Assembly: GCA_021162845.1 (NCBI GenBank)
Contig: JAGGXX010000061.1
Location: 1-64,000 of the forward strand
Source of the DNA: Thermoprotei archaeon
GTDB lineage: Archaea; Thermoproteota; Thermoprotei; QMSL01; B3-G16
Length of the DNA: 64,000 nt
Reading direction: 5' to 3'
This document shows, piece after piece, positions 10,689-44,224 of the stretch. Under the pieces are notes generated by a model. It saw only the letters and a program-made list of their open reading frames with translations, ran no database searches and was not told the DNA's origin. The first letter of the stretch is position 1. Every line of letters begins with the position of its first letter. The translations under genes were made by a program, and so were the position numbers.

Positions 10689-11528
10689 GTGTTCGTAACG
10701 GAGGATTATCTGGTGAAGCTACTCTTAGGCTTATTAGATGGTAGCCTGAAGGATGTAGACACTCCAGAGTTGAAGAGAATAGCCGAGAGGCTAAACCGTG
10801 TCGTAGATCCCGGCGAGAGAATTGCCATCTTGATGAGAGAAGGTATTCTCACCATAGGTCCAAGGAATGTGCTCATACTGGGATACCCCATAACAGATAA
10901 GAACGTCCTGAGGCTTTTATACGATGAGGTATCGCGGTATCTCCCTCCGGATAAAAGGCGGATTCTAGCGAAACTCTCCTTTTCGCTGACAAGGCTATAC
11001 AGGGAGGGGAACAGAGAGGATTTCCTCTCATCCTTAGCTAACCTAGTCAGGGCTCTTTATGAGGATGATCCAAATGATTACATCAGGGAAATGGAGGAAC
11101 TAGCTTCCCTAATGGTCGTTGACCGACGTCTTGCATTGATGACGATTAGGCTAATCGAAGGCTTAGGCCGCCAACGAAACGCCCATATGGTCTACGTGTT
11201 CCTGATGCTAGCCTGCATCATGAGAGCTCTCAGAAGCCCCATCTACAGGTTGCTCCTCAGGAGGATCGGCATCAGCTCATATTGGGATGAGATAAAACTA
11301 TATCACCCCTACATAATACTCAGGAGGAGAAAGGAGCTCTATCTTATCGAGGTGAGGGTTGATAAGAGGGAAGCCGTAATCCTAATCTTACCAAGAGGCA
11401 TAGACTATTACGCTGGATACTGCTTGGTCAGGCGTACTTTATGGACTAAGGATATACCCGATGCATTCGAAGCCGTCCTGGCATCAGCCGAAAGACGAGC
11501 TGAGTTCCTTCTTAACGTTAACAGCTAA
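10689..11528 (+). CDS. Hypothetical protein, helical N-terminus with basic beta-rich C-terminus
   Basis: I do not recognise this 279-residue protein. The first roughly 190 residues look all-helical (VTEDYLVKLLLGLLDGSL and AERLNRVVDPGERIAILMREG), suggesting a winged-helix or HEAT-like part. The last 90 are strand-rich and basic (YIILRRRKELYLIEVRVDKRE). No signal peptide or membrane span is seen. It starts with GTG and stands alone, divergent from the Lrp-like regulator and 67 bases before a HAD phosphatase in the same direction. Codon use matches its neighbours. Confidence 0.6.
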   Translation: MFVTEDYLVKLLLGLLDGSLKDVDTPELKRIAERLNRVVDPGERIAILMREGILTIGPRNVLILGYPITDKNVLRLLYDEVSRYLPPDKRRILAKLSFSLTRLYREGNREDFLSSLANLVRALYEDDPNDYIREMEELASLMVVDRRLALMTIRLIEGLGRQRNAHMVYVFLMLACIMRALRSPIYRLLLRRIGISSYWDEIKLYHPYIILRRRKELYLIEVRVDKREAVILILPRGIDYYAGYCLVRRTLWTKDIPDAFEAVLASAERRAEFLLNVNS

Positions 11529-12969: not shown

Positions 12970-13452
12970 ATGGAGTCTATAGAACATGGGGAACAATTGG
13001 TCTTAATTCATGACCCGGACAGGTGTACAGGTTGCATGACCTGCATGATGGCCTGCGCCTATAAACACTACCATACTCTCGATCTTGATAAGGCATTTAG
13101 GTTGATCCTGGAGATGAATGAAGGCTTCTTTGTCGCTTCATATTGCGTCCACTGCGACTATCCGGCATGTGTCGCTGCATGTCCTACGGGGGCCATGCAT
13201 AAGGATGAGAGGAGTGGCTGGGTCCTGAACAATCCCCTTCTCTGTATCGGTTGCGGTAACTGCGTCTACGCCTGTCCTGTATCTAACCCTCGAATAGATC
13301 CCTTCCTTAAGATCAGCGTCAAGTGCGATTTCTGCGGTGGGGACCCTTGGTGTGCGAAGTTCTGCCCGAGCGGTGCTACCCGGGTCGTAACACGTGAGGA
13401 GGCTAGGGACTTCTTTAAGAAGGTACTACCCAAGTTGGGGGTTAGGCTTTGA
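12970..13452 (+). CDS. Polyferredoxin electron-transfer protein (HycB/CooF-like)
   Basis: The 160-residue protein contains four cysteine clusters for up to four [4Fe-4S] centres: CTGCMTCMMAC near residue 20, CVHCDYPACVAACP near 60, CIGCGNCVYACP near 95, and CDFCGGDPWCAKFCP near 120. This layout is typical of CooF/HycB/HydN ferredoxin subunits that wire oxidoreductases to hydrogenases. It is soluble, with no signal. It overlaps the next gene by four bases and forms an apparent operon with an HdrC-tail-like protein and HdrB, just upstream of a group 4 hydrogenase large subunit. Confidence 0.85.
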   Translation: MESIEHGEQLVLIHDPDRCTGCMTCMMACAYKHYHTLDLDKAFRLILEMNEGFFVASYCVHCDYPACVAACPTGAMHKDERSGWVLNNPLLCIGCGNCVYACPVSNPRIDPFLKISVKCDFCGGDPWCAKFCPSGATRVVTREEARDFFKKVLPKLGVRL

Positions 13453-13715
13453 ACGAAATCCATCCCTTAAGGAAGAGGTTTAGGAGCCTACCCAGTTCCT
13501 TTAAGGGTCTACTGCGTAGTGAATTGCGCATAGGCCATATATACGAACTTACGGACCTAACGGTTAGCGATAGGGAAGATCTAGGCTTGCCCTCTAAGCC
13601 TCCTACCGCCTATTCTGATCCCAATGCCTTAGAAGCCCTTAAGCGGATAGCTAAGGCGACCAACCTGAAGAAAGATACGGGCTTTGATGTCGATAAGCTG
13701 GATTTCGAGTGGTGA
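13449..13715 (+). CDS. HdrC C-terminal-domain-like protein lacking Fe-S cysteines
   Basis: The 88-residue protein has no cysteine. DREDLGLPSKPPTAYSDP followed by a helix and TGFD resembles, from memory, the C-terminal helical part of heterodisulfide reductase subunit C ('GLP.PPT...DP..L..I...TGF'). The N-terminal two-cluster ferredoxin domain of HdrC is absent, and the preceding gene supplies separate clusters. It starts with TTG overlapping the ferredoxin gene and ends overlapping hdrB, so a split HdrC translated together with its Fe-S partner is plausible. The family match needs a profile search. Confidence 0.55.
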   Translation: MNEIHPLRKRFRSLPSSFKGLLRSELRIGHIYELTDLTVSDREDLGLPSKPPTAYSDPNALEALKRIAKATNLKKDTGFDVDKLDFEW

Positions 13716-14581
13716 TGATCATTAACGCAAGGTACATAGCCTTTTGGGGTTGTACCATACCGGCCTTACAGCCTTACGTTGAGAAAGCAGCCAGACTAGT
13801 GTTCGGAGAGCTAGGGATTACACTAGCTGAGCCAGAGGGCATGACGTGTTGCCCCGATCCAGACATCACGCATATGGCCAGTCATGAGTATTGGCTGATA
13901 ACGGCAGCTAGGAACCTCGCTCTTGCCGAGAGGAGAGGTCTTGACCTCATGACCCCATGCAATGGATGCTTCTTCACCTTTACTGAGGCCATAAGCGAGC
14001 TGAAGAGGAACGGTAAAAAGGCGAATGCGGTTTTGAGCGAGAACTTTAACATGACGTTTAAGGGCAAGGTACGCGTCTATCATGCACTTGAAGTCCTTTA
14101 TGATGTAGTGGGCCCTGAAAACATCAAGGCCAAGTTCACGAGAAGTCTAAATGGCTTAAGGGTAACTATACATCCCGGCTGTAAGCTCCTCAAGTATGAG
14201 GAGAAGCGATTGGACGTTAAGCTATACGAGCTTACTAAGCTAACAGGATCCACGATATTGACCTACGGCCTAGAGCGCTTATGCTGTGGGGTTCCCCTGA
14301 TGTACTTAGATGCTGATAAGGCCATAGAGCTTAGGACAAAGCCTAAACTAGATAGAATGAAGGAGGTCAATCCCGACGCCATAGTAGTGATATGCCCCGC
14401 GTGCCATAATCAGCTCGAAAAAGGTCAATTAATGATATCAGAGGATGAGGAATACGACATACCAGTCATTAGTCTCCTGGAGCTCTTAGCCCTATGCATG
14501 GGCTTTTCACCTGACGACATAGGTATGTACTTACATAGGATCCCTGCAGATGATGCCCTAGAGAAACTAGGACTTATATAG
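13709..14581 (+). CDS. hdrB: Heterodisulfide reductase subunit B-like protein
   Basis: The 290-residue protein has both cysteine-rich CCG domains. Domain one uses C15, C47-C48, C84 and C87; domain two uses C158, C192-C193, C229 and C232. In HdrB these bind two noncubane [4Fe-4S] clusters that cleave a disulfide. The substrate in non-methanogens is not CoM-S-S-CoB and may be another thiol carrier. Possible starts are tandem GTG codons (13709, 13712) or ATG 13715, all inside the previous gene's end. No HdrA flavoprotein is found in the window. Confidence 0.85.
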   Translation: MVMIINARYIAFWGCTIPALQPYVEKAARLVFGELGITLAEPEGMTCCPDPDITHMASHEYWLITAARNLALAERRGLDLMTPCNGCFFTFTEAISELKRNGKKANAVLSENFNMTFKGKVRVYHALEVLYDVVGPENIKAKFTRSLNGLRVTIHPGCKLLKYEEKRLDVKLYELTKLTGSTILTYGLERLCCGVPLMYLDADKAIELRTKPKLDRMKEVNPDAIVVICPACHNQLEKGQLMISEDEEYDIPVISLLELLALCMGFSPDDIGMYLHRIPADDALEKLGLI

Positions 14582-14660
14582 GTGGACTGGGCCTCAGATG
14601 GTGTTGTGTCATGATGTGGACGCTCAGGCCTAGTAAATCCGCATTCCTTAGGATGAGATC

Positions 14661-16298
14661 ATGAGCTTAAGAGAGGCAGTTATTAAGGAACTCTTAAATG
14701 TCATGCGCGAGGATCTAAAGGAGATCTGCGAATCTAAAGCCTATAGGAACACGACATTAGTTATCCTTAACCCATCGAAGGTGTGCGATTTAACTAGGAT
14801 CATGAAGGAGAAGTTCGATGCCCGTCTTTCTCATGAGTTCGCACTGGAGGACGAGTTAGGATTCAGGGTATATTACGTCTACGATCTTTCCTTCATGGAG
14901 AGGCATCTCCACTTAATAGCCATGACTAGGATATCGCGCGGAGAAACTATCCCCTCAATAGCCCCCGTAACTGAGGAGGCTTTATGGGCGGAGAGGGAGT
15001 ATGCCGAGTTGTTAGGCATCAGCTACGTGAACCATCCCGACGGCGAGAAGCTCAGGCATCAGTTCCTACCGCATGAATGGCCTGATGTCCCGGAGAAAGG
15101 AAGCTGGGTTACGACGCCTAGGCCGTACGGAGCCTATTCCATATTACCGTTCGGTCCTTATCACCCTGCCCTTCTCGAAGCCACTTACTTCCGGGTATTA
15201 GCTGAGGGGGAAATGGTCCTCGATATAGATATCAAGACGGGCTTCAATCATCGGGGTATAATGAAGTTGGCTGAGAAGCGGGATTATCACAAAGCGTTAC
15301 ACCTGTGTACACGTGTCTGCGGCATATGTAATGCGGCCCATGCCCAGACGTATGTTAACGCTGTTGAAAACCTCTTAGGCATTGAGGTCCCTGAACGTGC
15401 CAAGTACATAAGGGTACTTGCCGATGAGCTAAACAGAATTCACAGTCATTTGCTTTACTTTGGCGTAGAATCATATCTAGCTGGCTTCGAGACGCTATTC
15501 ATGCTCTCCTTCAGGTATAGGGAGGAGGTCATGGATGCCATAGAGCTGCTCTCCGGTAACAGGGTTCTCATGGACATACATGACATAGGGGGCGTTAGAA
15601 GGGATGTATCAGACGAGGCTTTAACGAAAATCAGGGGTAGACTGAGAAGCCTAAGGGAGGCCGTTGAGAAGTTCATAGGTATGCTACAAGAGCACAGAGT
15701 ACTTAGGGCGAGAATGGAGGACATAGGAGTCCTAAGAGCGGTCGATGCTAAGAGAGCGGGTGCAGTAGGTCCTACAGCAAGGGGGAGCGGGTGGAGGATT
15801 GATGTAAGGCACGATAGTCCGTGCGAGGTATACGATGAGGTCTCCTGGGAGGTGATTACCGATGAGGGCAAGGACGTCTTATCACGGACTATGGTTCGCC
15901 TCAGGGAAGTATTGGTTTCAATAGGGATATGCGAACAATGTCTCGAAGCCCTACAGCGCGTTAAGGGTCCAGTAAAGCTTGAAGATATGCCCAGCCCAGA
16001 GGCCGGAGCAGAGGGCATGGGTCTATATGAGGCACCCCGAGGCGAACTATTCTACTACGTAGTAAGTGATGGCTCTCCAAATCCCTATGCCGTTCGAATC
16101 AGAACGCCTTCCTACAGGAACATGTACGTCCTAAAGTATATGGTGCCCGGCTACGAGCTAGCCGATGTGCCCGTCATAATAGGTAGCATAGATCCATGTC
16201 TCGCATGCACCGATAGGATACAGGTGATTGATGTCAAGCGAGGGGAGATCCGGTACTACTCCATTAGGGAGCTAAAGCGTCATAATAGAATCACGTAG
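14661..16298 (+). CDS. Group 4 membrane-bound [NiFe] hydrogenase large subunit with fused NuoC-like domain
   Basis: The 545-residue protein combines a 30-kDa NuoC-like N-terminal domain (about residues 1-120) with a NuoD/HycE catalytic domain, as in HycE/HyfG. Both Ni-binding CxxC pairs are present, RVCGIC (C220, C223) and DPCLACTDR (C513, C516), so it should be a true hydrogenase and not a complex I quinone module. A 26-residue tail after the TDR indicates maturation by an endopeptidase not encoded here. It acts at the cytoplasmic face of the membrane. Its 3' end overlaps the convergent membrane-subunit gene by 19 bases. Confidence 0.9.
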   Translation: MSLREAVIKELLNVMREDLKEICESKAYRNTTLVILNPSKVCDLTRIMKEKFDARLSHEFALEDELGFRVYYVYDLSFMERHLHLIAMTRISRGETIPSIAPVTEEALWAEREYAELLGISYVNHPDGEKLRHQFLPHEWPDVPEKGSWVTTPRPYGAYSILPFGPYHPALLEATYFRVLAEGEMVLDIDIKTGFNHRGIMKLAEKRDYHKALHLCTRVCGICNAAHAQTYVNAVENLLGIEVPERAKYIRVLADELNRIHSHLLYFGVESYLAGFETLFMLSFRYREEVMDAIELLSGNRVLMDIHDIGGVRRDVSDEALTKIRGRLRSLREAVEKFIGMLQEHRVLRARMEDIGVLRAVDAKRAGAVGPTARGSGWRIDVRHDSPCEVYDEVSWEVITDEGKDVLSRTMVRLREVLVSIGICEQCLEALQRVKGPVKLEDMPSPEAGAEGMGLYEAPRGELFYYVVSDGSPNPYAVRIRTPSYRNMYVLKYMVPGYELADVPVIIGSIDPCLACTDRIQVIDVKRGEIRYYSIRELKRHNRIT

Positions 16299-17248
16299 AT
16301 GCTAGACCACGCCAACGAGAGAATTGATATGACGAGCGTTAACTTCGTGTAAAAGCTGACCGCTTGATCTATCCTATACCTAGGCATAAGCGCTGAGATG
16401 AGGGTTAACAGAAAGACGACAATTGCGGCTAAAGCGAAAAAGAATAATGCTCCTAGTACATTGGAGGAAGGCCATCCTCCTGCTAAGAATAAATCGACGA
16501 AGAGCCCTGAGAGCTGGAAGAGCAAGAGCACCTTAGTGACCTCGATTAACGCGAGCATCTTACCACTATACTCCGTAAAGGGACCGGAGACTATCTCTAC
16601 ATCAGCTTCGGGGATATCGAAGGGCTTAAGATGAAGCTTCCCCAAAATGGCTAACATGAACGCAACGCCTGCAAGAGGGTTCACTAGGAGGTAAGGTACG
16701 CCCTGTTTAGCTACGATTCCGCGTATGGTAAGGTCACTAGCCAGTATAGCGACGGATATTATCGCTGAGATGAGCGGTATCTCATATGCTAAGAAGAGCT
16801 CCGCCTCACGCCTAGCTCCGATTAAGGCCCATGGAGATCCGCTAGAAGCCGCACCTACCACCCAGAAGACCGGTACGAACGCTAAGATCATGAATACTAT
16901 TATGGCACTCAGTGGGGTCCAACTAAGCGGGCTGTTAAGCCCCGGGATGACCAAGAACCACGTACTTACAATGGAAAGCAATAGCGCTATGATAGGTGAT
17001 AAGATGAACCAGGTCTTAATGGACGATTCTTGGATCAAAGTCTGCTTATGCCATAGTTTAATTATGTCGTAAAGCGGTTGCCAGAACCTGCTTACCCCTA
17101 ATCCTCTGCGTAGATCCCGCGGCATTATGAGATAAGGCCCCCTCCTATGTTGCATCCGTGCCAATAACTTCCTGAGCTCATATGAATAGGCCAGCCCTGC
17201 TATAAGGGAGATACAGGGAAACACGAACAAGTATATCGCGCTAATCAT
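16280..17248 (-). CDS. Hydrogenase membrane anchor subunit (NuoH/HyfC/EchB-like)
   Basis: The 322-residue protein has about eight membrane helices. Diagnostic cytoplasmic loops are RMQHRRGPYL near residue 33, the QPLYDIIKLWHKQ loop, and GKLHLKPFDIPEADVEIVSGP with FTEYSGKMLALIE near residues 205-235. These are the NuoH/HyfC signatures that contact the large and small subunits and carry the charged channel near the quinone-like cavity. It starts with ATG. It lies opposite to, and overlaps the end of, the large-subunit gene, an unusual layout for subunits of one complex. Confidence 0.9.
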   Translation of the reverse strand: MISAIYLFVFPCISLIAGLAYSYELRKLLARMQHRRGPYLIMPRDLRRGLGVSRFWQPLYDIIKLWHKQTLIQESSIKTWFILSPIIALLLSIVSTWFLVIPGLNSPLSWTPLSAIIVFMILAFVPVFWVVGAASSGSPWALIGARREAELFLAYEIPLISAIISVAILASDLTIRGIVAKQGVPYLLVNPLAGVAFMLAILGKLHLKPFDIPEADVEIVSGPFTEYSGKMLALIEVTKVLLLFQLSGLFVDLFLAGGWPSSNVLGALFFFALAAIVVFLLTLISALMPRYRIDQAVSFYTKLTLVISILSLAWSSIYVILL

Positions 17249-17404
17249 AGGGATTTACACCTCACGGGAGGATCCTAAGTACTTGTTGAAAGAGTGCACC
17301 ATCTTGAAGTCCACATGAGCTCATAGGTAATGCTGGCCGAAATCTCTCCTTTCCCCTCAACATCCTCGGAATCACATCTCCTGACATGTTATCCCCCATT
17401 CCCC

Positions 17405-18919
17405 TTATTTACATTCCTCAATGCTTCTCGCAAGCTCATAAGCCAGTTCCTCAAGGACTCTGGTTCCGCCTACTGACCCGTAGGCGTAGAGCACCCCGAT
17501 CACTATGAGGAGTAGAGCTAGAAGTGGGCCTGGGAATAGCATGGTCTTAGGCACGCTTGATAAACTAGCCAGCTCCGATTTGGGGTTCGTAAGGAATGCC
17601 CTGTACCAAGAAATGGAGATCGCGGTCAGAGTAATGAGCGCAGTAGCTATCACCATGACCCTTAAGTACATCGGTACATATGAGTTGAGGGATAACTCCC
17701 TTAAGGTGCCATAGCCAGCGAACCCGGGCACTAATCCTAGCGATAGACAACTTATCCAAAACGTTGCGTTCCCAATGGAATAGGTTCTCCAGGCACCGCC
17801 CATGTAGTTAAGATCTTCTGCATGGGAAATCCTTATCACGACGCCTGTATCAAAGAAGAGCTGTGCTTTGGCTAACCCGTGGTTGATCATGTGCATCAGC
17901 GCTCCTCCTAGGAGGATCACGGCGCTATCAGCATTTGACTTTGAGAGGTAGAGCGCCAGGAATATCGCGATGTAGCCTATTTCCGAGATCGTCGAAAAAG
18001 CCCAAACGCGCTTTATGCCACATATGTGCACTGGACCTACGTGAAACCTACTATACCTGCTACCCCCTGTGGCCTCTATCAATGCTTCAAGGGCGCCTAT
18101 CAACAGGCTCAAGGTCCCTAATGCGATGAGCGTGTTGATTAGCAGTGAGCTGACTTCCGTAAGTACACTATACATCCTCAGGAGGACGAATGCCGCTGAT
18201 TGAACTAAGGCGGCGCTTAATAAGGCCGATACAGGCACGGGTGCCTCGCTATGTGCAGATGGAAGCCATAGGAGCCCGAAGGGAACGAGACCTGCTTTAA
18301 TGGAAAAGCCTAATGTGTAGATCAGTAACACGAGCTCTTTCACGTCCACTGGGAGCTCACTTATGGCTGCGATGCTCAAGTTCCCCACATAGTAGTACTG
18401 CACCGCTAAGCCTGTCAATATTAGCATTGCAGCCAGGACATTGAGCGCGAGGAACCTAGTGGCAGCGCGTAAATTGCTGCGCCTCCTATTGAACGTTATC
18501 AATACACCCCCTACGGCCGTCCCGAGCTCAAACGTCAAATATATCAGCGAGATATCCGAGGCTAACACTATGTAGATCATGGATAGGATGAAGATCAGTA
18601 ATAACGAGCTATAGAGATCATAACGTGGCTCATGATCCATGTACCCGAAGCTATAGATGACCGCCAATAACCCCAAGAAGACCAACAGGGCGGACATCAG
18701 GCTTGTAGCTGAATTGAGGACATAGCTGTAAGCTTCGAATTCGCTTCCAGAGATAAGGCACAAGGAGAGGACGTAAAGTAGTAGGCATAGGGAAATGACC
18801 ATCGTTATAGCTGATATGGCGTTCGCGAATCTCCGAGCTTTATTAGCTAACGTCAGGGATACCAATGCCGAGCTAGAGATGAGCACTAATGGCATGAGCA
18901 CGAAGATGGCCCCGCTCAT
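17405..18919 (-). CDS. Antiporter-like membrane subunit (NuoL/M/N, HyfB/MrpD type)
   Basis: The 504-residue protein has about 14 membrane helices. TFELGTAVGGVLITFNRRR (helix 5 with the conserved Glu region) and a helix with SIKAGLVPFGLLWLPSAHSE (Lys and the 'P..HSEAP' signature, followed by APVPVSALLSA) mark the proton_antipo_M domain. GALMHMINHGLAKAQLFF is the helix 10-12 region. It would pump H+ or Na+ when coupled to H2 chemistry. Its start overlaps the 111-residue membrane gene by four bases. Only one such subunit is visible, as in small Ech/CooM-type complexes. Confidence 0.9.
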   Translation of the reverse strand: MSGAIFVLMPLVLISSSALVSLTLANKARRFANAISAITMVISLCLLLYVLSLCLISGSEFEAYSYVLNSATSLMSALLVFLGLLAVIYSFGYMDHEPRYDLYSSLLLIFILSMIYIVLASDISLIYLTFELGTAVGGVLITFNRRRSNLRAATRFLALNVLAAMLILTGLAVQYYYVGNLSIAAISELPVDVKELVLLIYTLGFSIKAGLVPFGLLWLPSAHSEAPVPVSALLSAALVQSAAFVLLRMYSVLTEVSSLLINTLIALGTLSLLIGALEALIEATGGSRYSRFHVGPVHICGIKRVWAFSTISEIGYIAIFLALYLSKSNADSAVILLGGALMHMINHGLAKAQLFFDTGVVIRISHAEDLNYMGGAWRTYSIGNATFWISCLSLGLVPGFAGYGTLRELSLNSYVPMYLRVMVIATALITLTAISISWYRAFLTNPKSELASLSSVPKTMLFPGPLLALLLIVIGVLYAYGSVGGTRVLEELAYELARSIEECK

Positions 18920-19251
18920 CCCTTAAACACCGTCCTATCGCGATAGAGCTCCCATCTCTCATCGAAATTCCCGAGGTATGGAATCCCAGTCGAGTAGAGT
19001 TCTTCGCTGGAGATATACGGTGGTCTTGAAGCTCCACCCGTAAATACGTCTTCGGGCTTAACCCTTCTTGGGGACATGGAAATTAACGAGATGTACAGTA
19101 CAGTGAAGATGAGGCATGCCGTAGTAAGCTCTATGAAGAGCCACATAAGGGGGAAACGTAACTTCAATGGTAAGGCTGTGGAAAACGTACCCCCAAGCAT
19201 ACTGGCTATCATTAAGATCAACGCTAGCCATAAGTACTCTCGCCTTCGCAT
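18916..19251 (-). CDS. Small membrane protein of the hydrogenase cluster, unknown
   Basis: I do not recognise the family of this 111-residue protein. Two hydrophobic helices (about residues 7-27 and 33-57) are followed by a polar tail, with DVFTGGASRPPY and STGIPYLGNFDERW, predicted to lie on one side of the membrane. Translational overlap with the antiporter subunit and conserved strand suggest an accessory subunit of the same complex, perhaps a NuoA- or HyfE-like spacer. It starts with ATG. The divergent gene at 19376 encodes the ferredoxin subunit. Confidence 0.65.
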   Translation of the reverse strand: MRRREYLWLALILMIASMLGGTFSTALPLKLRFPLMWLFIELTTACLIFTVLYISLISMSPRRVKPEDVFTGGASRPPYISSEELYSTGIPYLGNFDERWELYRDRTVFKG

Positions 19252-19375
19252 AAGATCCCCCAGCGCTACGGAGATTATCCTTCCACTATTTCGATATTTA
19301 TGTTTTCTTCATGAGCGCTGATAAGCAAAGCTTTTTACCTCACGATAGCATTTCTTTATGCCGAGCTGATACCCC

Positions 19376-19963
19376 ATGAGCAGAGCCTTGATGAAAGAGC
19401 TGATTAAAGGCCTTTTAAAGCCCTTCACTATAGGTTATCCCTCAGTTGCTCCAAGAAAATACGCTCAGATCGTTGAAGGCCTTCGTGGTAAGCATGAAGT
19501 TCAGGAGGATAAATGCATAGGATGTGGAGCTTGTGCGAGGAGGTGCTCAACCGGTGCTCTTAAACTCACGGATCATGAGTTTAAGAGGACGTTAAGCGTA
19601 AGCCTGAAGGAGTGCATATTCTGCTATAGGTGCGTTGAGGTATGTCCTGAGGATGCGTTATCCCTAAGTACGGATTTTGAGCTAGCCCGTACGAGAGATG
19701 AAGAACGGGATCTAGAGATCAAATGGATGAACGAATTGTCGAAGTGCCTAAACTGCGGAAAGCCTATAACGACCTCCAAACAGATCGAAAGGGTGCGTGA
19801 ACGCGTAATTGAGAATATAGCCCCTCAGGCTAAGGGAGTTATCGCCGAGGATCTGAAGGTCTTCTTGAATTACTGTCCCGCATGCAGAAAGGAGCTAGCG
19901 TATAAGCTGGGCTTCCATCCGGCCAAGTACTACCTCGTTTTAAGCACACGGAACGTTACTTAG
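19376..19963 (+). CDS. Hydrogenase ferredoxin subunit (NuoI/HycF/HyfH-like) with extra cysteine domain
   Basis: The 195-residue protein has two classic [4Fe-4S] motifs, CIGCGACARRCS near residue 47 and CIFCYRCVEVCP near 80, typical of NuoI-like subunits bridging electron input and small subunit. PFTIGYPSVAPRKY at the N-terminus is a common HycF/MbhN feature. Unusually, the C-terminus adds a separate pair of CxxC knuckles (CLNCGKP and CPACRKE), suggesting a zinc-ribbon or rubredoxin-like domain. It starts with ATG and lies 17 bases upstream of the small-subunit gene. Confidence 0.87.
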   Translation: MSRALMKELIKGLLKPFTIGYPSVAPRKYAQIVEGLRGKHEVQEDKCIGCGACARRCSTGALKLTDHEFKRTLSVSLKECIFCYRCVEVCPEDALSLSTDFELARTRDEERDLEIKWMNELSKCLNCGKPITTSKQIERVRERVIENIAPQAKGVIAEDLKVFLNYCPACRKELAYKLGFHPAKYYLVLSTRNVT

Positions 19964-19980
19964 GGGGAGGTGCGGTATCC

Positions 19981-20445
19981 ATGATGAGAAGAAGAGCCTT
20001 CAGGTATTCCCCCTGGATATTCCACCTTCATTGCGGTGGATGTAATGGCTGCGATATAGAACTCTTGGCGACGTTAACCCCTAGATATGATGTAGAGCGA
20101 TTGGGCATAAAGCTCGTGTCATCACCGAGACATGCTGATATACTGGTCGTGACAGGTCCCATGCCCAAGCACATAATCCCTTTCGCTAAGAGGGTTTATG
20201 AGCAAGTACCTGAACCGAAGGTCGTAGTAGCCGTAGGCTCATGCGCGTGTAGCGGTGGCGTGTTCGCGGGCATTGATGTAAATGAGGAGAATTACGCTCT
20301 GGTCGGACCCATCGATAAAGTATTTCCCGTTGACGTTTACGTACCAGGATGTCCACCCAAGCCCGAGGCCATAATACAAGGCATAGCCAAGGCGATACAA
20401 GTACTGTCAACGAAGGCTGTTTCGTCAAAAAGTTTAAGGCGATAG
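19981..20445 (+). CDS. [NiFe] hydrogenase small subunit (NuoB/EchC/HycG-like)
   Basis: The 154-residue protein carries the proximal [4Fe-4S] cluster: C21 and C24 in CGGCNGCD, C88 or C90 in GSCACSG, and C124 in VPGCPPKPE. VVTGPMPKHI is the conserved subunit-interface loop. It lacks the larger C-terminal cluster domain of uptake hydrogenase small subunits, as expected for group 4 enzymes. It pairs with the large subunit at 14661 despite being 4 kb away. Its 3' end nearly abuts a convergent CCG-domain gene. Confidence 0.92.
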   Translation: MMRRRAFRYSPWIFHLHCGGCNGCDIELLATLTPRYDVERLGIKLVSSPRHADILVVTGPMPKHIIPFAKRVYEQVPEPKVVVAVGSCACSGGVFAGIDVNEENYALVGPIDKVFPVDVYVPGCPPKPEAIIQGIAKAIQVLSTKAVSSKSLRR

Positions 20446-20455
20446 TAAGATTTCT

Positions 20456-21238
20456 TCAAGGTATCGCTAAGCTTTCAGCCACCAGCTGGCTTATATCGAT
20501 AACCTTAATCGGTATGTCGTACCTCTCCGAGGCATATCTGAAGTTGACATAACATTGAGGGCAAGCGCTTACGATGGCATCAACCCCCAGCCTTCTCGCC
20601 TCCCTAAGTCGCTCACTCGCAATGGCCATGGAGACCTCCGGGTGTAGTCCCCATATTCCTCCTCCGCCACCACAGCAAAGGGAATCCTCCATTCGCTCCT
20701 CGAACTCTACGAGCTCTATGCCCGGCAGCCGCCTCAAAATAAACCTAGGTTCCTCGAAGACCCCCATTCTACGTCCCAATTCACATGGATCATGATAGGC
20801 TACCTTCCTATAGCCCTTCACACTCTCTCCCTGTAGCACAAGCTTTCCTTCCTTAATGGCTTCGGCTATTATCTCGGTTAGGTGCTTTACCTTAGGGAGC
20901 TTAACCCCGAAGATGTCCCGATAATCCCTAGCGAAGGTTCTATAACAAGCTGGACAAGGGGTAACTATCAATGAGGCATTGGTGTTCAAGATCAGCTCGA
21001 CTACCCTCTTGACGTACCCTCCTAGTTCCTTAACGTAACCGTAGCATAGGGCCCCTCTTCCACAGCATAACTCCTCATCCCTCAAGCACGTTACTTCACC
21101 TGGAAAAAGTGAGTGAAGTATCTTAAACGTGGCCTCCGCTATCCCTGGTGCCCTTAACCTAGTGGTGCACCCTAGCCAACATAGTACAGGTCTCTTCATC
21201 TGCTTAGTCCTCCTGAGTACTACTTCCTGCTCTTCCAC
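20456..21238 (-). CDS. CCG-domain (HdrB/D-like) iron-sulfur protein
   Basis: The 260-residue protein has two cysteine-rich domains. The first uses C20/C24, C58-C59 and C95/C98, with extra C51 and C65. The second uses C152, C188-C189, C226 and C229 in DSLCCGGGGG and SACPQCY. It resembles the C-terminal part of HdrD, GlpC or LutA, which handle disulfides or thiolates through noncubane clusters. It starts with GTG and overlaps the 3' end of the lipoyl-carrier gene by 19 bases on the same strand, so the two are co-translated. A redox partnership with the lipoyl protein is an inference. Confidence 0.85.
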   Translation of the reverse strand: MEEQEVVLRRTKQMKRPVLCWLGCTTRLRAPGIAEATFKILHSLFPGEVTCLRDEELCCGRGALCYGYVKELGGYVKRVVELILNTNASLIVTPCPACYRTFARDYRDIFGVKLPKVKHLTEIIAEAIKEGKLVLQGESVKGYRKVAYHDPCELGRRMGVFEEPRFILRRLPGIELVEFEERMEDSLCCGGGGGIWGLHPEVSMAIASERLREARRLGVDAIVSACPQCYVNFRYASERYDIPIKVIDISQLVAESLAIP

Positions 21239-21651
21239 TTCTCCACTTCTTCCTTATACCACTTAACGGCCTCTTCCCCAGTTAACAGCTTCTTCATATC
21301 CTCCTCCAGGTTAAGGGGCTTGAGAATCGCCATCCATCCTTTTTCGTAGGGATCTTTGCTCAGGATCCTGGGTCTCCTCCTCACCTCTTTATTTACCTCA
21401 ATCACCTCCCCCGTTATGGGGGATTCTATTGGGCCTACCCACTTCGCGCTTTCTAAGGTTCCTAGTCCTTCCCCTTGCTTGACTTTACTCCCCTTCGGCC
21501 TTAGCCTTATCATTATTATCCTGCCGGCCATCTCGATCCCTAGATGCGTCATGCCGACTATCGCTTTATCCCCTTCAAGCTTAACCCAAGTATGTCCATG
21601 AGGCCAATAGTACCTGTCCTCCATCAGCAAATAGCCGTCCACCTCGACCAT
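21220..21651 (-). CDS. GcvH-like lipoyl carrier protein
   Basis: A 143-residue protein of the GcvH/lipoate-binding family. HGHTWVKLEGDKAIVGMT, then TLESAKWVGPIESPITGEV place the predicted lipoylated lysine at K70; the C-terminus is helical with KGWMAILKP. No glycine-cleavage P or T protein is nearby; the partner in the operon is a CCG iron-sulfur protein. That resembles the LbpA proteins of sulfur-oxidising Hdr-like systems, where lipoyl-bound intermediates are oxidised. A box A-like CTTATATG (minus strand, about 21695-21702) precedes it. An orphan glycine-cleavage role is the alternative. Confidence 0.83.
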   Translation of the reverse strand: MVEVDGYLLMEDRYYWPHGHTWVKLEGDKAIVGMTHLGIEMAGRIIMIRLRPKGSKVKQGEGLGTLESAKWVGPIESPITGEVIEVNKEVRRRPRILSKDPYEKGWMAILKPLNLEEDMKKLLTGEEAVKWYKEEVEKWKSRK

Positions 21652-30994: not shown

Positions 30995-32068
30995 TTGAGC
31001 AGAAATCTCGTCTTCAGCGTATATGGTTATGGCTTTAGCATACCGGTCGCCATTCTAAACGAGCCGCTACTTGGTCGCCTCTATAGGGATCTCCTATTTG
31101 AGGCTAGACGGGGCTTAACAGAGGAGGCGCTCGCTAAGATCCTCTCTCCTGCAGTCGTGAATGATATCATATCCGTTTATACTCATCTCGGCATACTGAT
31201 TAAGGATGGAAATAAGCTCTGGACGACAATACCTCTATTTAGTAATGAGGAGAAAAAGCCCCTTATGAGGGAGGCGGATAGGATAGCACAAAGCATGACC
31301 AAGTACATCAGTCGGCACCTTAGGGAGATCATAAATCAATATAGGCGCACCTCTCTCCCGAGGCAGGGCTTAGAGTGGAGGGATGTAAGCTTCACGCTAA
31401 TCGGAGGCATGTTACTGGATCAATACCTATTTAGGACCATTCATGAAAGGAACGTGGTCCCCCCTCCACCCCTTAGGCCAGATGGAGGAAAATGGTATCT
31501 TTGGTGCTTAGAAGATGGTACCGGTTCTCCTTATGAATACTGGGTGAGCATGATCTCCTCACCAATAGGGGGCTGTGCATGCATCTGGATAAGGGGGATG
31601 AGGAGGTCATATGTACACATATACGGTGAGGCCCTGAGGTTAGCGATGTTACTCGCTGAAGGCGTGAAAACACGTGATGAGCTGGTGTATAGATCCGCAC
31701 TACCCGCCGACTTCGTTCATGACACTTTAAATAAATGGCTCGAGAGAGGCCTCCTAGAGGCTAAGGATGATGAATTTAGGCATAAATTCCCGATCCTACT
31801 CAAACCCGATGTCAGTGTGCTCTCCAGCGCCTTTCGTAGGATGTGCGGTGAGCTTGTTGAAAATATACTGAGGAGGAACATAAGCGTCCTACTCAAGTTG
31901 AAACATCGCCTAGGCTATGAACATATCGACGATGCCGCCTTTTTGGTGATGATGTTTCACGCCATAAAGCAATTCACCGTGTCGCGCTTAACAGAGCTAG
32001 GTATACTTCCTGAGCCACCTAAGCCCATACCAACATGGTGGGGATTTTGGGTATGGTGCCTCTTCTAA
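30995..32068 (+). CDS. Hypothetical protein with possible winged-helix segments
   Basis: I do not recognise this 357-residue protein. Residues about 30-85 (ARRGLTEEALAKILSPAVV then a short wing) and about 215-262 (LAEGVKTRDELVYRSALPAD followed by WLERGLLEAKDD) look like two winged-helix units separated by a helical/strand region containing PPPPLRPDGGKWYLWCLEDG. The C-terminus is rich in Trp (PTWWGFWVWCLF). No signal peptide is seen. It starts with TTG. A DNA-binding or regulatory role is only a guess. It sits alone downstream of the tRNA. Confidence 0.55.
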   Translation: MSRNLVFSVYGYGFSIPVAILNEPLLGRLYRDLLFEARRGLTEEALAKILSPAVVNDIISVYTHLGILIKDGNKLWTTIPLFSNEEKKPLMREADRIAQSMTKYISRHLREIINQYRRTSLPRQGLEWRDVSFTLIGGMLLDQYLFRTIHERNVVPPPPLRPDGGKWYLWCLEDGTGSPYEYWVSMISSPIGGCACIWIRGMRRSYVHIYGEALRLAMLLAEGVKTRDELVYRSALPADFVHDTLNKWLERGLLEAKDDEFRHKFPILLKPDVSVLSSAFRRMCGELVENILRRNISVLLKLKHRLGYEHIDDAAFLVMMFHAIKQFTVSRLTELGILPEPPKPIPTWWGFWVWCLF

Positions 32069-32308: not shown

Positions 32309-32890
32309 ATGTCACAAGAAGACGCTCTTGCCACTAAAGACTTAACAGCCCTAGCAGAGCTTCTTAAATCGATCTACTCTGGCCTTTCGGCTATAAGACT
32401 TGTCATGGAAGCCGTGAACAACAATATCTCCAAGCTAAGTGAAGAGATCTCGTCGCTGAACGAGAGGCTTAGGGCCGTGGAGGAGGGGCTTAAGTCCACT
32501 AGGGAGCAAATGGAACGCGAAAGAGCCCTCTTAGAGGCCGAGCTTAGGGGATTAGAGGAACGGATATCCCTCCTTACGGCTCAGAGCGATAAGCGACTTA
32601 AGGACATAAGTAAGGAGTTCCACATGACATCTCTTTCCCTGAGGGAGTCCGTGCTCTCTCTAAGGGAGATGAGATCCTCGTTAAGATTGGGTTTAGATAG
32701 GCTTCTTTATGAGCTACGCAATTGCCGAGCAATGGACGGGGAGCTCTCGGTTAAGTTCAAAAGGCAGGAGGAGCTTCTACTAGCGGAGTTCAATACGCTA
32801 AGGCTTACGTTAGCTCATCTCTCCGCTCGGATAAGCAAGCTTGAAGAAAGTATTGAAAACTTAAAATCTAAAAGTCCAAGAATAGCTTGA
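32309..32890 (+). CDS. Coiled-coil protein, unknown
   Basis: The 193-residue protein is almost entirely heptad-patterned helix: NNNISKLSEEISSLNERLRA, then VEEGLKSTREQMERERALLE, and a last stretch LAHLSARISKLEESIENL. It has no signal peptide, Walker motif or cysteine cluster (one Cys). It overlaps the next coiled-coil gene by four bases, so the two are probably made in fixed ratio and may form a filament or scaffold. Function unknown. Confidence 0.7.
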   Translation: MSQEDALATKDLTALAELLKSIYSGLSAIRLVMEAVNNNISKLSEEISSLNERLRAVEEGLKSTREQMERERALLEAELRGLEERISLLTAQSDKRLKDISKEFHMTSLSLRESVLSLREMRSSLRLGLDRLLYELRNCRAMDGELSVKFKRQEELLLAEFNTLRLTLAHLSARISKLEESIENLKSKSPRIA

Positions 32891-34530
32891 GGAGATTCCT
32901 CATGCCGCTTGGTGGCAGGAAGGTAGAAAACCTGATTGAGGAGCTTAGGACAGTCCTGATAAGTAGTATTCAGGCGAATAGTGAGCTCATCAAGAGGCTT
33001 TCATCAGATCTTAACGTAGCATTAGAAGGCTTGAGGAGCGAGATCACGCGTTTAGCTGAGGAGAATAGAGGTCTAGTTAATGATATGTTAAAGCTCATTG
33101 AGGCTGAGAGGAGAGCTGTGGATATAAGGATCAGTGAGCTCACGGCACTCTCACAGGGCTTAGAGGATAGGCGGAAGAAGCTAGAAGCCCAGGAAGCTAA
33201 GCTGATGGAAATAACAGATACCATGATAAGTACCCTTAAGGAGATCTCCGATAGATACGAGGCCCTTGCTAATGACATAGGAAATAAATTTAGTGCACAG
33301 CAGAAGGAGATAGTACGTAATGTCGAGGAGCTTCGAAAGATAATAGGCGAGATACAAGACTTCAAGACCGCCGACATGAGGATACTTGAGGGAATAAGCG
33401 AGGAGGTGAAACGGTTAGCTCAGGTCATAGACAATTTCATTAAAGTCAAGGATGAAATAGCTGAGACTGAAGCTCTACTTAAGCTGAAAAAGGAGGAATT
33501 AAGTCGCGTCGAATCGGAGATCGAGGAAAAGAGGAAGACGCTTCAAGAGGAATTATCAAAAGTAGCTGATGAGAGGAGAGCCCTTGAAGAGGCTAAGGCT
33601 TCCTATGAGGCTAAGCTTGAAGAATTAGCCAACTTAGAGGCTGAGCTTAATGAACGTGTAAAGACTATAGAAGCTAGGGAGGCGGATCTATCGAAGATTA
33701 TGGATGAGGTACAGGGGTTAGTGAAGGAGCTTCTCTCTGAGAAGCGGAAATTGGATGAACTTAAGGAGAACCTAAGGGAAAGAGAGGAACAATTAAAGAA
33801 GGAAGAGCTCGAACTTGAGCTCAAGGCGAAAGAACTTGAAGAGCTCAAGCTTAAGCTTGAAGCCAGGGAGAAGGGATTAGAGAAGGAAGCGGAAAACCTT
33901 AAGGAGCGTGAGGAAGCTATCAAAAGGCTTCAGGAATCCCTTAGTAAAAAGGAACGGGAATTACATGAACTTGAGGCTAAGCTCAGGGCTCACTGGGAAG
34001 AGCTAAGGAGGAAAACGGAGGAGTTAAACAAGTTCGAAAGGGAGCTCCATGAGCTTGAGACTAAATTGAGAAAGAAGGAGCTAGCATTGGATGGTTGGCG
34101 CAAGGAGATAGAGGATAGAGATAGGTTCGTGAGTGAGAAGGAGAAAAGTCTCAGGGAAAGAATCATGAAGTTCAATGAGGAGCAGGAGCGATTTAAGGAG
34201 GAAGTCGAAAGCACCCAAGCTAGGTTGAAGGATTGGGAAGATAGGCTTAGGGCATGGGAGGATAATCTCCTTAAGAAGGAAAAGGAGCTAGTGGGCTATG
34301 AGAGAGCGCTGGTCACGCGCGAAAGCGCATTAGCTGAGCTTAGAGAAAAGCTGGATGCTGAACAGAGAAGACTTAAGGAGGAAAGGGAGGCATTAAGAAC
34401 GAGATTAAAGGAGGTAGAAGCCCTTAAACACGAGGTAACTAGACTAAGGGTGGAAAACGAGCACTTAAGGGAAGTGATACGTTCAAGGGAAGAGGAGCTA
34501 GAGAAGCTTAAATCCTTATTAAGAGGCTAA
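32887..34530 (+). CDS. Long coiled-coil protein without ATPase domain
   Basis: The 547-residue protein is highly charged, with continuous heptads from about residue 60 to the end (many LKEELEKLE-type repeats). Short breaks occur near 150 and 450. It resembles the rods of SMC/Rad50 or myosin-like proteins but has no Walker A, signature or hook motif, so it is not an SMC ATPase. Low-complexity Glu/Lys/Leu makes homology searches unreliable. It starts with TTG within the previous stop; an ATG at 32902 is an alternative. Structural role in cell architecture is a guess. Confidence 0.72.
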   Translation: MRRFLMPLGGRKVENLIEELRTVLISSIQANSELIKRLSSDLNVALEGLRSEITRLAEENRGLVNDMLKLIEAERRAVDIRISELTALSQGLEDRRKKLEAQEAKLMEITDTMISTLKEISDRYEALANDIGNKFSAQQKEIVRNVEELRKIIGEIQDFKTADMRILEGISEEVKRLAQVIDNFIKVKDEIAETEALLKLKKEELSRVESEIEEKRKTLQEELSKVADERRALEEAKASYEAKLEELANLEAELNERVKTIEAREADLSKIMDEVQGLVKELLSEKRKLDELKENLREREEQLKKEELELELKAKELEELKLKLEAREKGLEKEAENLKEREEAIKRLQESLSKKERELHELEAKLRAHWEELRRKTEELNKFERELHELETKLRKKELALDGWRKEIEDRDRFVSEKEKSLRERIMKFNEEQERFKEEVESTQARLKDWEDRLRAWEDNLLKKEKELVGYERALVTRESALAELREKLDAEQRRLKEEREALRTRLKEVEALKHEVTRLRVENEHLREVIRSREEELEKLKSLLRG

Positions 34531-42228: not shown

Positions 42229-44206
42229 GGGAAATATGGTAACTTTTAAATACTTTGAAAACTGTATTTATCATGAGGAGAGATGGAGCGGTTTTATAAG
42301 GTTTCTGAAGTTGCTAGGATGCTTAATGTTTCTGCTGTAGCTGTTAGGAAGTGGATTAAATCTGGTAAGTTGGGAGCTAGGAGGATTGGTAAGCTGTGGA
42401 TGATACCTGAAAGTGAGCTTAAGCGATTCCTTGGAGAGAAACCGAGAGAAATAAGAGCCGTTATCTACGCTAGAGTAAGTTCTCATAAACAGAAGAAGGA
42501 TGGTAATCTTGATAGGCAGATTGAGAGGTTGAGGAATTACTGTTCTGCTAAGGGATACAAAGTTGTTGACGTGATAACCGATGTTGCTAGTGGATTGAAG
42601 GAAGATAGGGATGGTTTACAGAAACTATTCAATCTAGTTGAGAAACATCAAGTAGATGTTGTAGTGGTTGAGTTCAGAGATAGGCTAACGAGATTCGGAT
42701 TTGACTATCTTAAGAGGTACTTTGAATCTCACGGAGTTAAAATAGAGGTAGTGGAAGAGACTGAGAAGGATTATATGGAGGAGCTTATTGAGGACTTCAT
42801 ATCCATTGTGGTTAGCTTTGCTGGTAGGATTTACGGTAAGCGTTCACAGAAGTTCAGGAAGATAAAAAAGGTCATAGAAGAGGTGATAAGCAACGACGAT
42901 TAAAACTATTGAGAAAACAATTAAACTTAAACTCATACCATTGACGAGGAGTGATAAGAGCCAACTACTCTCTCTTCTTAGTGATTATACGTCAATGATA
43001 CGGGAAACATTAGATACTATTATTGAGAATGATATACGTAGTAGAAAGAAAGCACATGAGCTATGCTATGGATCTCTAAGAAACAAGTATCCTCATCTTC
43101 ACAATAAGTTTGTTCAGGAAGCATATAAGAGAGCTTTGGGTATGTATCGTAGCTACAGGAAACTACTGAATAAGTGGAAGCGATTACCAGAGAAGAAAAG
43201 AAAGAGAATATCACCTCCATCACCACCTAAAGTGGATGGGAATAGAATCATAGAGCTACATATAGATACTTACAAACTTGAAAGGAAACATGGATTCATA
43301 GCACTAACGATATCCAAGGGAAATGGTGTCTATCTCAAATTCTTCGTAATGGAATATGAGTATGCTAGTAGGGAGCTTAAGGGAACTAAACTAGGTAATT
43401 CTAAGGTACTGGTTGATGGAGATAGCATCTTTCTGCTATTAACAATACGTAGGAATGTTGAAGTGAGAGAACATAGGAATAAACTCATTGTAGATATAAA
43501 TGAAGATAGTATTGACTGCCTGCTAGTGAACTATGAGATTGGAGAAGCAACATTATTCTCAATAAGGCATGATATTAGGAAGATACGTACTAATTATAGA
43601 AGGATTAGAAAGAGTATTCAGGTGAAAGTAAATAATCCTAGAATACGAGATAAGCTTCTTGCTAAGTATGGTTTTCGTGAGAGGAGGCGTGTAGAAGATA
43701 GATTAAAGAAAATAACGACATTATTAGCAGAAATTGCAAGAGAATATAATGCTGACTTGGTTAGGGAGAGCCTTAAGGACTTAAGACTTAGTGGTAAGAA
43801 GAGGAGTAAGCAGTTAAACTATAGGTTATCAACATTTCCTTACCGTAAGTTCATAACGTACATTGACTATAAATTCTATGAGCGAGAATTAAACGTAGTG
43901 GAAGCCGATGCAAAGAAAACATCTATCACCTGCCCGATATGTGGTTACGTAGATAGGAGGAATAGGGTGAGTAAAGAAATGTTCAAATGTAGAAGATGTG
44001 GATTCTCTTTTAATGTTCAATATGTTGCTTGTTTTAATCTTTTCTCCCGCTCCAATGACGGTAAAATAACCATCAGGAGCGGGAGGATTTATTTAATCTC
44101 CCGTAAGACCGCCCAAGTGGTGGCGGTCAATGTAGCTCCCAATGAACCATCGAATCAGATGAGATGGTTGAGGGAGAAGCCCGTGCAATTAGTTACCAAA
44201 ATACCC
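42229..44206 (+). mobile_element. IS607-type insertion sequence (tnpA serine recombinase + tnpB)
   Basis: The ends are inferred from imperfect terminal inverted repeats: left GGGAAATATGGTAACT (42229-42244) and right AGTTACCAAAATACCC (44191-44206) agree at 13 of 16 positions. Inside are an IS607-like serine recombinase and a TnpB, both on the plus strand. A box A (ACTTTTAAAT, 42243-42252) precedes tnpA. Codon use is more AT-rich than in the flanks, which suggests recent arrival. Three hairpins at the right end fit an omegaRNA region. No target duplication is evident, as expected for IS607. Confidence 0.8.
42283..42903 (+). CDS. tnpA: IS607-family serine recombinase (TnpA)
   Basis: The 206-residue protein has an N-terminal MerR-like helix-turn-helix (about 5-50: YKVSEVARMLNVSAVAVRKW), then a resolvase catalytic domain (about 58-190). 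VIYARVSSHKQKKDGNLDRQ contains the nucleophilic Ser and Arg residues, and EFRDRLTRFG holds the second catalytic Arg pair. This domain order, DNA binding first, is specific to IS607 transposases. It catalyses excision and integration through a circular intermediate. ATG start. It ends 37 bases before the next annotated start, but the TnpB frame is open right through this gap. Confidence 0.93.
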   Translation: MERFYKVSEVARMLNVSAVAVRKWIKSGKLGARRIGKLWMIPESELKRFLGEKPREIRAVIYARVSSHKQKKDGNLDRQIERLRNYCSAKGYKVVDVITDVASGLKEDRDGLQKLFNLVEKHQVDVVVVEFRDRLTRFGFDYLKRYFESHGVKIEVVEETEKDYMEELIEDFISIVVSFAGRIYGKRSQKFRKIKKVIEEVISNDD

Positions 44207-44224
44207 TTAGTTTCCAAAATATAA
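42941..44224 (+). CDS. tnpB: TnpB (IS605 OrfB-like) RNA-guided nuclease relative, probably catalytically impaired
   Basis: From TTG 42941 the protein is 427 residues. The RuvC-like sites are D185 (VDINEDS) and E276 (LVRESLKDL). A zinc ribbon (C331, C334, C350, C353) precedes FNVQYVACFNLF, where active relatives have 'DRDxNAAxN'. Both acidic positions are replaced (N358, Q360). Upstream of TTG the frame is open to 42890 and encodes KTIKLKLIP, the normal TnpB N-terminus, but only ATT codons could start it. The last six codons lie beyond the inferred IS right end. It may be decayed or repurposed. Confidence 0.88.
   Translation: MTRSDKSQLLSLLSDYTSMIRETLDTIIENDIRSRKKAHELCYGSLRNKYPHLHNKFVQEAYKRALGMYRSYRKLLNKWKRLPEKKRKRISPPSPPKVDGNRIIELHIDTYKLERKHGFIALTISKGNGVYLKFFVMEYEYASRELKGTKLGNSKVLVDGDSIFLLLTIRRNVEVREHRNKLIVDINEDSIDCLLVNYEIGEATLFSIRHDIRKIRTNYRRIRKSIQVKVNNPRIRDKLLAKYGFRERRRVEDRLKKITTLLAEIAREYNADLVRESLKDLRLSGKKRSKQLNYRLSTFPYRKFITYIDYKFYERELNVVEADAKKTSITCPICGYVDRRNRVSKEMFKCRRCGFSFNVQYVACFNLFSRSNDGKITIRSGRIYLISRKTAQVVAVNVAPNEPSNQMRWLREKPVQLVTKIPLVSKI

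Follow-up and report, generated by a model that had tools for sequence, protein, structure and literature searches.

An HdrB-linked group 4 [NiFe] hydrogenase beside a GcvH-like lipoyl carrier in a Thermoprotei archaeon

Introduction

Group 4 [NiFe] hydrogenases linked to HdrB have been described in several archaeal lineages. Here we analyse another locus of this kind, an 8.7 kb island (positions 12970-21651) in a 64,000-nucleotide stretch of a Thermoprotei archaeon genome (GCA_021162845.1, contig JAGGXX010000061.1, positions 1 to 64,000; hereafter the window). The Culexarchaeal complex named Ehe comprises a hydrogenase, HdrBC and an antiporter subunit; its gene neighbourhood also includes SdhA, CdhA, HdrA2B2C2 and GcvH (Kohtz et al. 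2022, PMC9723716). That study proposed H2-dependent disulfide turnover with ion transport, suggested that GcvH might carry the disulfide that HdrB acts on, and grouped Ehe with Ehd and Drh. Ehd (Methanomethylicia), Drh (Methanocellales) and Ehg (Nezhaarchaeia) are HdrB-linked group 4 hydrogenases of lineages methanogenic or predicted to be so, for which CoM-S-S-CoB is the proposed disulfide, and the disulfide used by such hydrogenases in non-methanogens is a question raised there (PMC9723716). In sulfur oxidisers a relative, LbpA, is an essential Hdr-linked carrier, in which two cysteines are conserved except in some archaeal LbpAs (PMC6067878).

We found that the window holds an Ehe-clade hydrogenase, not the full Ehe gene set, combined with what its sequence places as a different kind of lipoyl carrier. 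The best reading is that H2 would be coupled to a lipoyl dithiol/disulfide. We give roughly even credence to the island being an ion-translocating, HdrB-wired member of the Ehd/Ehe/Drh kind whose disulfide partner is most likely the lipoyl carrier and not CoM-S-S-CoB.

Results

Genes were called from open reading frames and family searches on the window proteins. The island contains:

12970-13452, plus strand: four-cluster [4Fe-4S] ferredoxin of DmsB/HycB type; 16 cysteines in four cluster motifs, Fer4 matches
13449-13715, plus strand: HdrC C-terminal-tail protein (HdrC'); TIGR03290 E 2.8e-6, model positions 83-142; zero cysteines
13709-14581, plus strand: HdrB with two CCG motifs; TIGR03288 E 3.9e-63
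14661-16298, plus strand: group 4 [NiFe] hydrogenase large subunit with fused NuoC domain; L1 CGIC and L2 DPCLAC intact
16280-17248, minus strand: NuoH/EchB-like membrane subunit; NADHdh E 1.6e-62
17405-18919, minus strand: single Mrp/NuoL-M-N-type antiporter-like subunit; Proton_antipo_M E 1.8e-28, 12 hydrophobic segments
18916-19251, minus strand: two-helix membrane protein of 111 amino acids; two hydrophobic segments, homologues in six related loci (L142-L147)
19376-19963, plus strand: two-cluster ferredoxin subunit of EchF/NuoI/HycF type, from family searches and cysteine motifs
19981-20445, plus strand: hydrogenase small subunit of NuoB type; Oxidored_q6 E 5.5e-36
20456-21238, minus strand: LutA-like CCG iron-sulfur protein; CCG E 8.1e-31, two complete CCG motifs
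21220-21651, minus strand: GcvH-like lipoyl carrier of the K-W-x-G subfamily, Lys70; GCV_H E 1.1e-35

The initial annotation had proposed these families at these places, together with the cluster-binding cysteines, both Ni-binding CxxC pairs and lipoyl K70, and all were recovered. The core hydrogenase set that it called complete is indeed so, with no NuoC missing, because a NuoC domain (Pfam Complex1_30kDa, E 4.9e-12) is fused to the N-terminus of the large subunit; this fusion went unmentioned, and the 111-residue membrane protein was omitted. The Ni ligands of the large subunit (L1 C220/C223, L2 C513/C516) are all kept.

HdrB carries two complete C-x31/33-CC-x35-CxxC motifs, and its 10 motif cysteines are invariant in an alignment of 15 hydrogenase-linked HdrBs. 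These motifs would form a noncubane [4Fe-4S] disulfide site. At the E cut-off applied, a family search of the genome returned this HdrB and no other. The HdrC part consists of the C-terminal tail only, its ferredoxin part being supplied by the separate four-cluster protein, likewise in L142-L147; this ferredoxin would serve as the electron bridge from the hydrogenase to HdrB. The HdrC tail gave a structure model (pLDDT 59) too poor for structure search. The island genes lie in blocks on alternating strands (plus, minus, plus, minus), the last being a two-gene unit in which the GcvH-like and CCG genes overlap by 19 bases. GC content is even (0.45-0.50) and gives no backing to a foreign origin.

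Within the genome's own class (81 genomes) group 4 hydrogenases are common, but no sampled locus besides the window has HdrB adjoining. Thus a first class-level comparison looked negative, and the conserved neighbourhood emerged only at phylum level. Across the phylum and in archaea beyond it, the ferredoxin-HdrC'-HdrB-hydrogenase set is found repeatedly, in Culexarchaeia, Bathyarchaeia, Hermodarchaeia, Hadarchaea and others. In L142-L147 the four-cluster ferredoxin orthologue adjoins HdrC'-HdrB, HdrC' orthologues of 92-101 amino acids occupy the same place, NuoH-like orthologues are 44-48% identical, and the two-helix membrane protein is kept. In a maximum-likelihood tree the HdrB-linked large subunits form a single clade (support 87/92), with a divergent paralogue from Hermodarchaea as the sole exception; inside it the window subunit belongs to a 100/100 clade with Culexarchaeal sequences, two more lineages of the phylum (L142/L143 and L146) and Hermodarchaea.

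The adjacency on which the lipoyl proposal leaned is conserved in relatives. GcvH and the ferredoxin gene are 0-22 bp apart in three Culexarchaeia-type loci (L144, L145, L147), and GcvH lies within about 800 bp of HdrB-hydrogenase genes in three further lineages: the window, 775 bp from the small subunit gene; L168, 505 bp; and L146, 242 bp. A lipoyl carrier occurs no more than 3 kb from the hydrogenase set at 5/7 fused-subunit HdrB-clade loci and at 0/15 HdrB-less group 4 loci (p = 8e-4), a weak comparison in that GcvH is rare in the class that supplied the HdrB-less controls. Pooling GcvH near any HdrB-linked hydrogenase gave no significant difference (7/46 versus 0/15, p = 0.18). Apparent GcvH neighbours at L180, L184 and L226 were dropped, their lipoyl lysine motif being missing. 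The locus L146 holds, in a single stretch (2.6-15.3 kb), genes for aldehyde:ferredoxin oxidoreductase (AOR), a lipoyl carrier, a complete hydrogenase, HdrB, and GlcD-like and GlcF-like proteins.

The carrier is the only GcvH-like protein found in the genome (GCV_H family search). Its Lys70 sits in ESAKWVG and is invariant across 22 aligned carriers. Phylum-wide, GcvH-like proteins split into two groups (99.8/100): a canonical group with the lysine context ES-V-K-A-x-S-D, as in solved glycine-cleavage H proteins, and a second group with E-[ST]-x-K-W-x-G, to which the window carrier belongs. The carrier of an sHdr-like locus (L242; HdrC-HdrB-HdrA-HdrC-HdrB-carrier-LplA) falls in the same K-W-x-G clade. 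A CCG/HdrB-type gene lies within 4 kb of 14/22 K-W-x-G carriers and of 0/16 canonical ones (Fisher p = 3.4e-5); these loci were fetched by GcvH similarity alone, and relatedness among them lowers the true significance. At L134 and L135 three GcvH-like genes alternate with genes of GlcD/GlcF type, and two of these GcvH-like genes lack the lipoyl lysine motif (EHGRK, EHGMR in the alignment). Canonical GcvH genes adjoin a gene for an FAD protein of about 448 amino acids at L246, L248, L249, L251-L254 and L260; an apparent homologue of it in L140 matches CoA-disulfide reductase, another possible thiol/disulfide pairing.

The predicted structure of the second CCG protein (pLDDT 85.8) gave LutA, EtfD and HdrB as its best PDB matches. 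Its fold and motifs fit LutA, the CCG-only protein of LutABC lactate oxidation and its best structural match; in contrast to LutA, it is coupled to a lipoyl carrier and has no LutB adjacent. The genome's LutB sits with a CCG paralogue on contig C20, where LutB, a LutA-like CCG protein about 42% identical to the window one, and AOR stand in a row on the same strand (L067; G000:C20, 1161-5042), with no lipoyl carrier. In other genomes K-W carriers adjoin relatives of the window CCG protein together with LutB (L122, L131) or a GlcD-HdrC fusion (L125, L130). These gene sets and the L146 stretch suggest that the carrier may collect electrons from hydroxyacid or aldehyde oxidation for the HdrB-hydrogenase, or work in reverse.

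We also looked for partner systems in the whole genome; the absences given here rest on family searches of an assembly estimated to be 95% complete. GcvP and GcvT were not found, so that no glycine-cleavage system was detected elsewhere to use this GcvH, and such a role is very unlikely. HdrA was not found, only ferredoxin and short nucleotide-binding fragments matching; the absence initially noted for the island thus holds genome-wide, and HdrA flavin-based bifurcation is unlikely. McrA was found neither in this genome nor in seven genomes with related clusters, which makes a CoM-S-S-CoB produced by Mcr unlikely. LipA and LipS2 were not found, and lipoate-protein ligase LplA is encoded on another contig; K70 might be lipoylated with scavenged lipoate.

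Compared with Ehe, the island shares the clade of the group 4 [NiFe] catalytic subunit, HdrB/HdrC, one antiporter subunit, a GcvH in the cluster and no McrA found. It differs in having no HdrA2B2C2, SdhA/TfrA-like or CdhA-like genes, in a K-W-x-G carrier whose gene forms an opposite-strand pair with that of a LutA-like CCG protein, and in hydrogenase genes on both strands. A 558-residue Culexarchaeal gene first labelled CdhA has TfrA/SdhA as its best match. From Ehd, Drh and Ehg the window genome differs in that no McrA was found. The sHdr-LbpA systems (PMC6067878, PMC10332631) likewise tie a lipoyl carrier genetically to HdrB-type proteins, whereas the window genome, with its one HdrB, has no hdrC1B1A-hdrC2B2 set, yielded neither HdrA nor LipS2, and has a hydrogenase instead; unlike LbpA, the window carrier has zero cysteines.

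The MvhADG-HdrABC bifurcating complex differs in its HdrA flavoprotein, not found here. Ech-type hydrogenases have few core subunits, one antiporter-like subunit and NuoH, and no HdrB module; the island has a similarly small core set, with one antiporter-like subunit and NuoH, and differs in its HdrB module. A second group 4 hydrogenase of the same genome (L064, G000:C42, ~5.7-15.6 kb in the locus) has a complex I-like gene set with intact Ni ligands and resembles the Fpo-like Hfo hydrogenase of PMC7886697.

Discussion

In the proposed mechanism, electrons would pass reversibly from H2 through the NiFe site and the small subunit to the two-cluster ferredoxin subunit, and onward through the four-cluster ferredoxin and HdrB to lipoyl-K70, which would cycle between disulfide and dithiol. 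The HdrC tail would act as an adaptor between the four-cluster ferredoxin and HdrB, while NuoH and the antiporter subunit would link ion movement to the potential drop. A second docking station would be offered by the LutA-like CCG protein, transferring two electrons between this lipoyl carrier and a different oxidoreductase, a role suggested because GcvH-CCG-LutB and GcvH-CCG-GlcD gene sets occur elsewhere. The lipoyl couple lies at about -0.29 V, roughly 0.1 V more positive than H+/H2 under standard conditions; transfer from H2 to lipoyl would yield at most about one ion per H2 and would be reversible at low H2. The sequence data show which genes are present, that their ligands are intact, the clade of the hydrogenase, the conservation of the neighbourhood and the failed search for glycine-cleavage, HdrA and Mcr genes; we infer the assembly of the complex, the lipoylation of K70, the substrate, the direction and the ion.

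Several points weigh against this mechanism. To our knowledge, no HdrB-linked group 4 hydrogenase has been characterised biochemically. The GcvH-CCG pair is a separate unit on the strand opposite to the preceding hydrogenase genes, and the adjacency of carrier and hydrogenase spans few independent lineages, the clade members L142 and L143 being without it. The carrier beside the Culexarchaeal Ehe belongs to the canonical subfamily, which means that carrier and hydrogenase came together on more than one occasion or that their pairing is in part opportunistic. Because the lipoate synthases tested were not found, lipoylation would depend on scavenging of lipoate, and E2 lipoyl proteins may be other targets of LplA.

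The separate strands and transcription units would also be expected if two unrelated units merely lie side by side, the HdrB-hydrogenase using some soluble disulfide and GcvH-CCG serving an oxidation of the LutAB/GlcD/AOR type elsewhere in the cell. K-W-x-G carriers do pair with CCG, LutB or GlcD at L122, L125, L130 and L131 with no HdrB-linked group 4 hydrogenase adjoining, and the LutA-LutB-AOR cluster on contig C20 has no carrier. However, two other lineages (L168, a Bathyarchaeota metagenome-assembled genome, and L146) have K-W carriers next to HdrB-linked hydrogenases, and we consider this explanation somewhat unlikely.

Less probable still is that HdrB serves as an electron conduit only, with H2 linked to a low-potential carrier or a hydroxyacid dehydrogenase and no disulfide chemistry. 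The CCG subunits of LutA- or EtfD-type proteins, which have the same fold, may act so, and at L146 the hydrogenase and HdrB genes form one run leading directly into GlcD-like and GlcF-like genes, with the carrier and AOR nearby. Yet the island HdrB is HdrB-type by sequence, its nearest solved relative being the HdrB of heterodisulfide reductase, and both its CCG motifs are complete. The reading of the carrier as a conventional H protein of glycine cleavage is nearly refuted: the protein matches GCV_H, keeps the lipoyl lysine and narrowly passes the PRK01202 cut-off (117.5 versus 117 bits), but it scores below the TIGR00527 equivalog cut-off and falls outside the canonical clade, and the genome yielded neither GcvP nor GcvT.

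The ion-pumping coupling of H2 to a thiol/disulfide couple, perhaps lipoyl, that the initial annotation had put forward was thus not refuted by the tests run, and it stays an inference in which the strand and transcription unit of the GcvH-CCG pair count against it. The general lipoyl-disulfide idea is not new, essentially the same having been published for Ehe in 2022 (PMC9723716). What is new is a member in another archaeal class, in a genome where no HdrA was found, with a carrier of the CCG/HdrB-associated K-W-x-G subfamily that it has in common with an sHdr-like locus. Of what is new, two points stand out: the search for the remaining glycine-cleavage genes, which came up empty across the genome, and the subfamily of carriers associated with CCG genes.

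Glycine cleavage, Mcr and HdrA were not found in this genome, and the gene for its sole GcvH shares bases with a CCG gene next to the hydrogenase; two small soluble proteins would therefore suffice for a direct test of the lipoyl hypothesis. The split between canonical and CCG-associated GcvH provides a sequence marker for carriers that probably do redox work and not glycine cleavage. The locus suggests a possible role for lipoic acid as an electron shuttle to or from H2. A broader proposal, which we advance tentatively, is that anaerobic archaea lacking CoM/CoB might use K-W-x-G lipoyl proteins as a general dithiol/disulfide currency bound to protein, loaded and unloaded by CCG-family enzymes (LutAB, GlcD/F, AOR-linked, Hdr), with HdrB-linked ion-pumping hydrogenases balancing the pool against H2.

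Other features of the window

Outside the island, a large coiled-coil-like protein (32887-34530) and two other proteins (10689-11528 and 30995-32068) are encoded, none with a Pfam match. At 42283-44224 lies an IS607-like element, recognised by a serine resolvase gene followed by a TnpB-like gene with a Cas12f1-like TNB domain.

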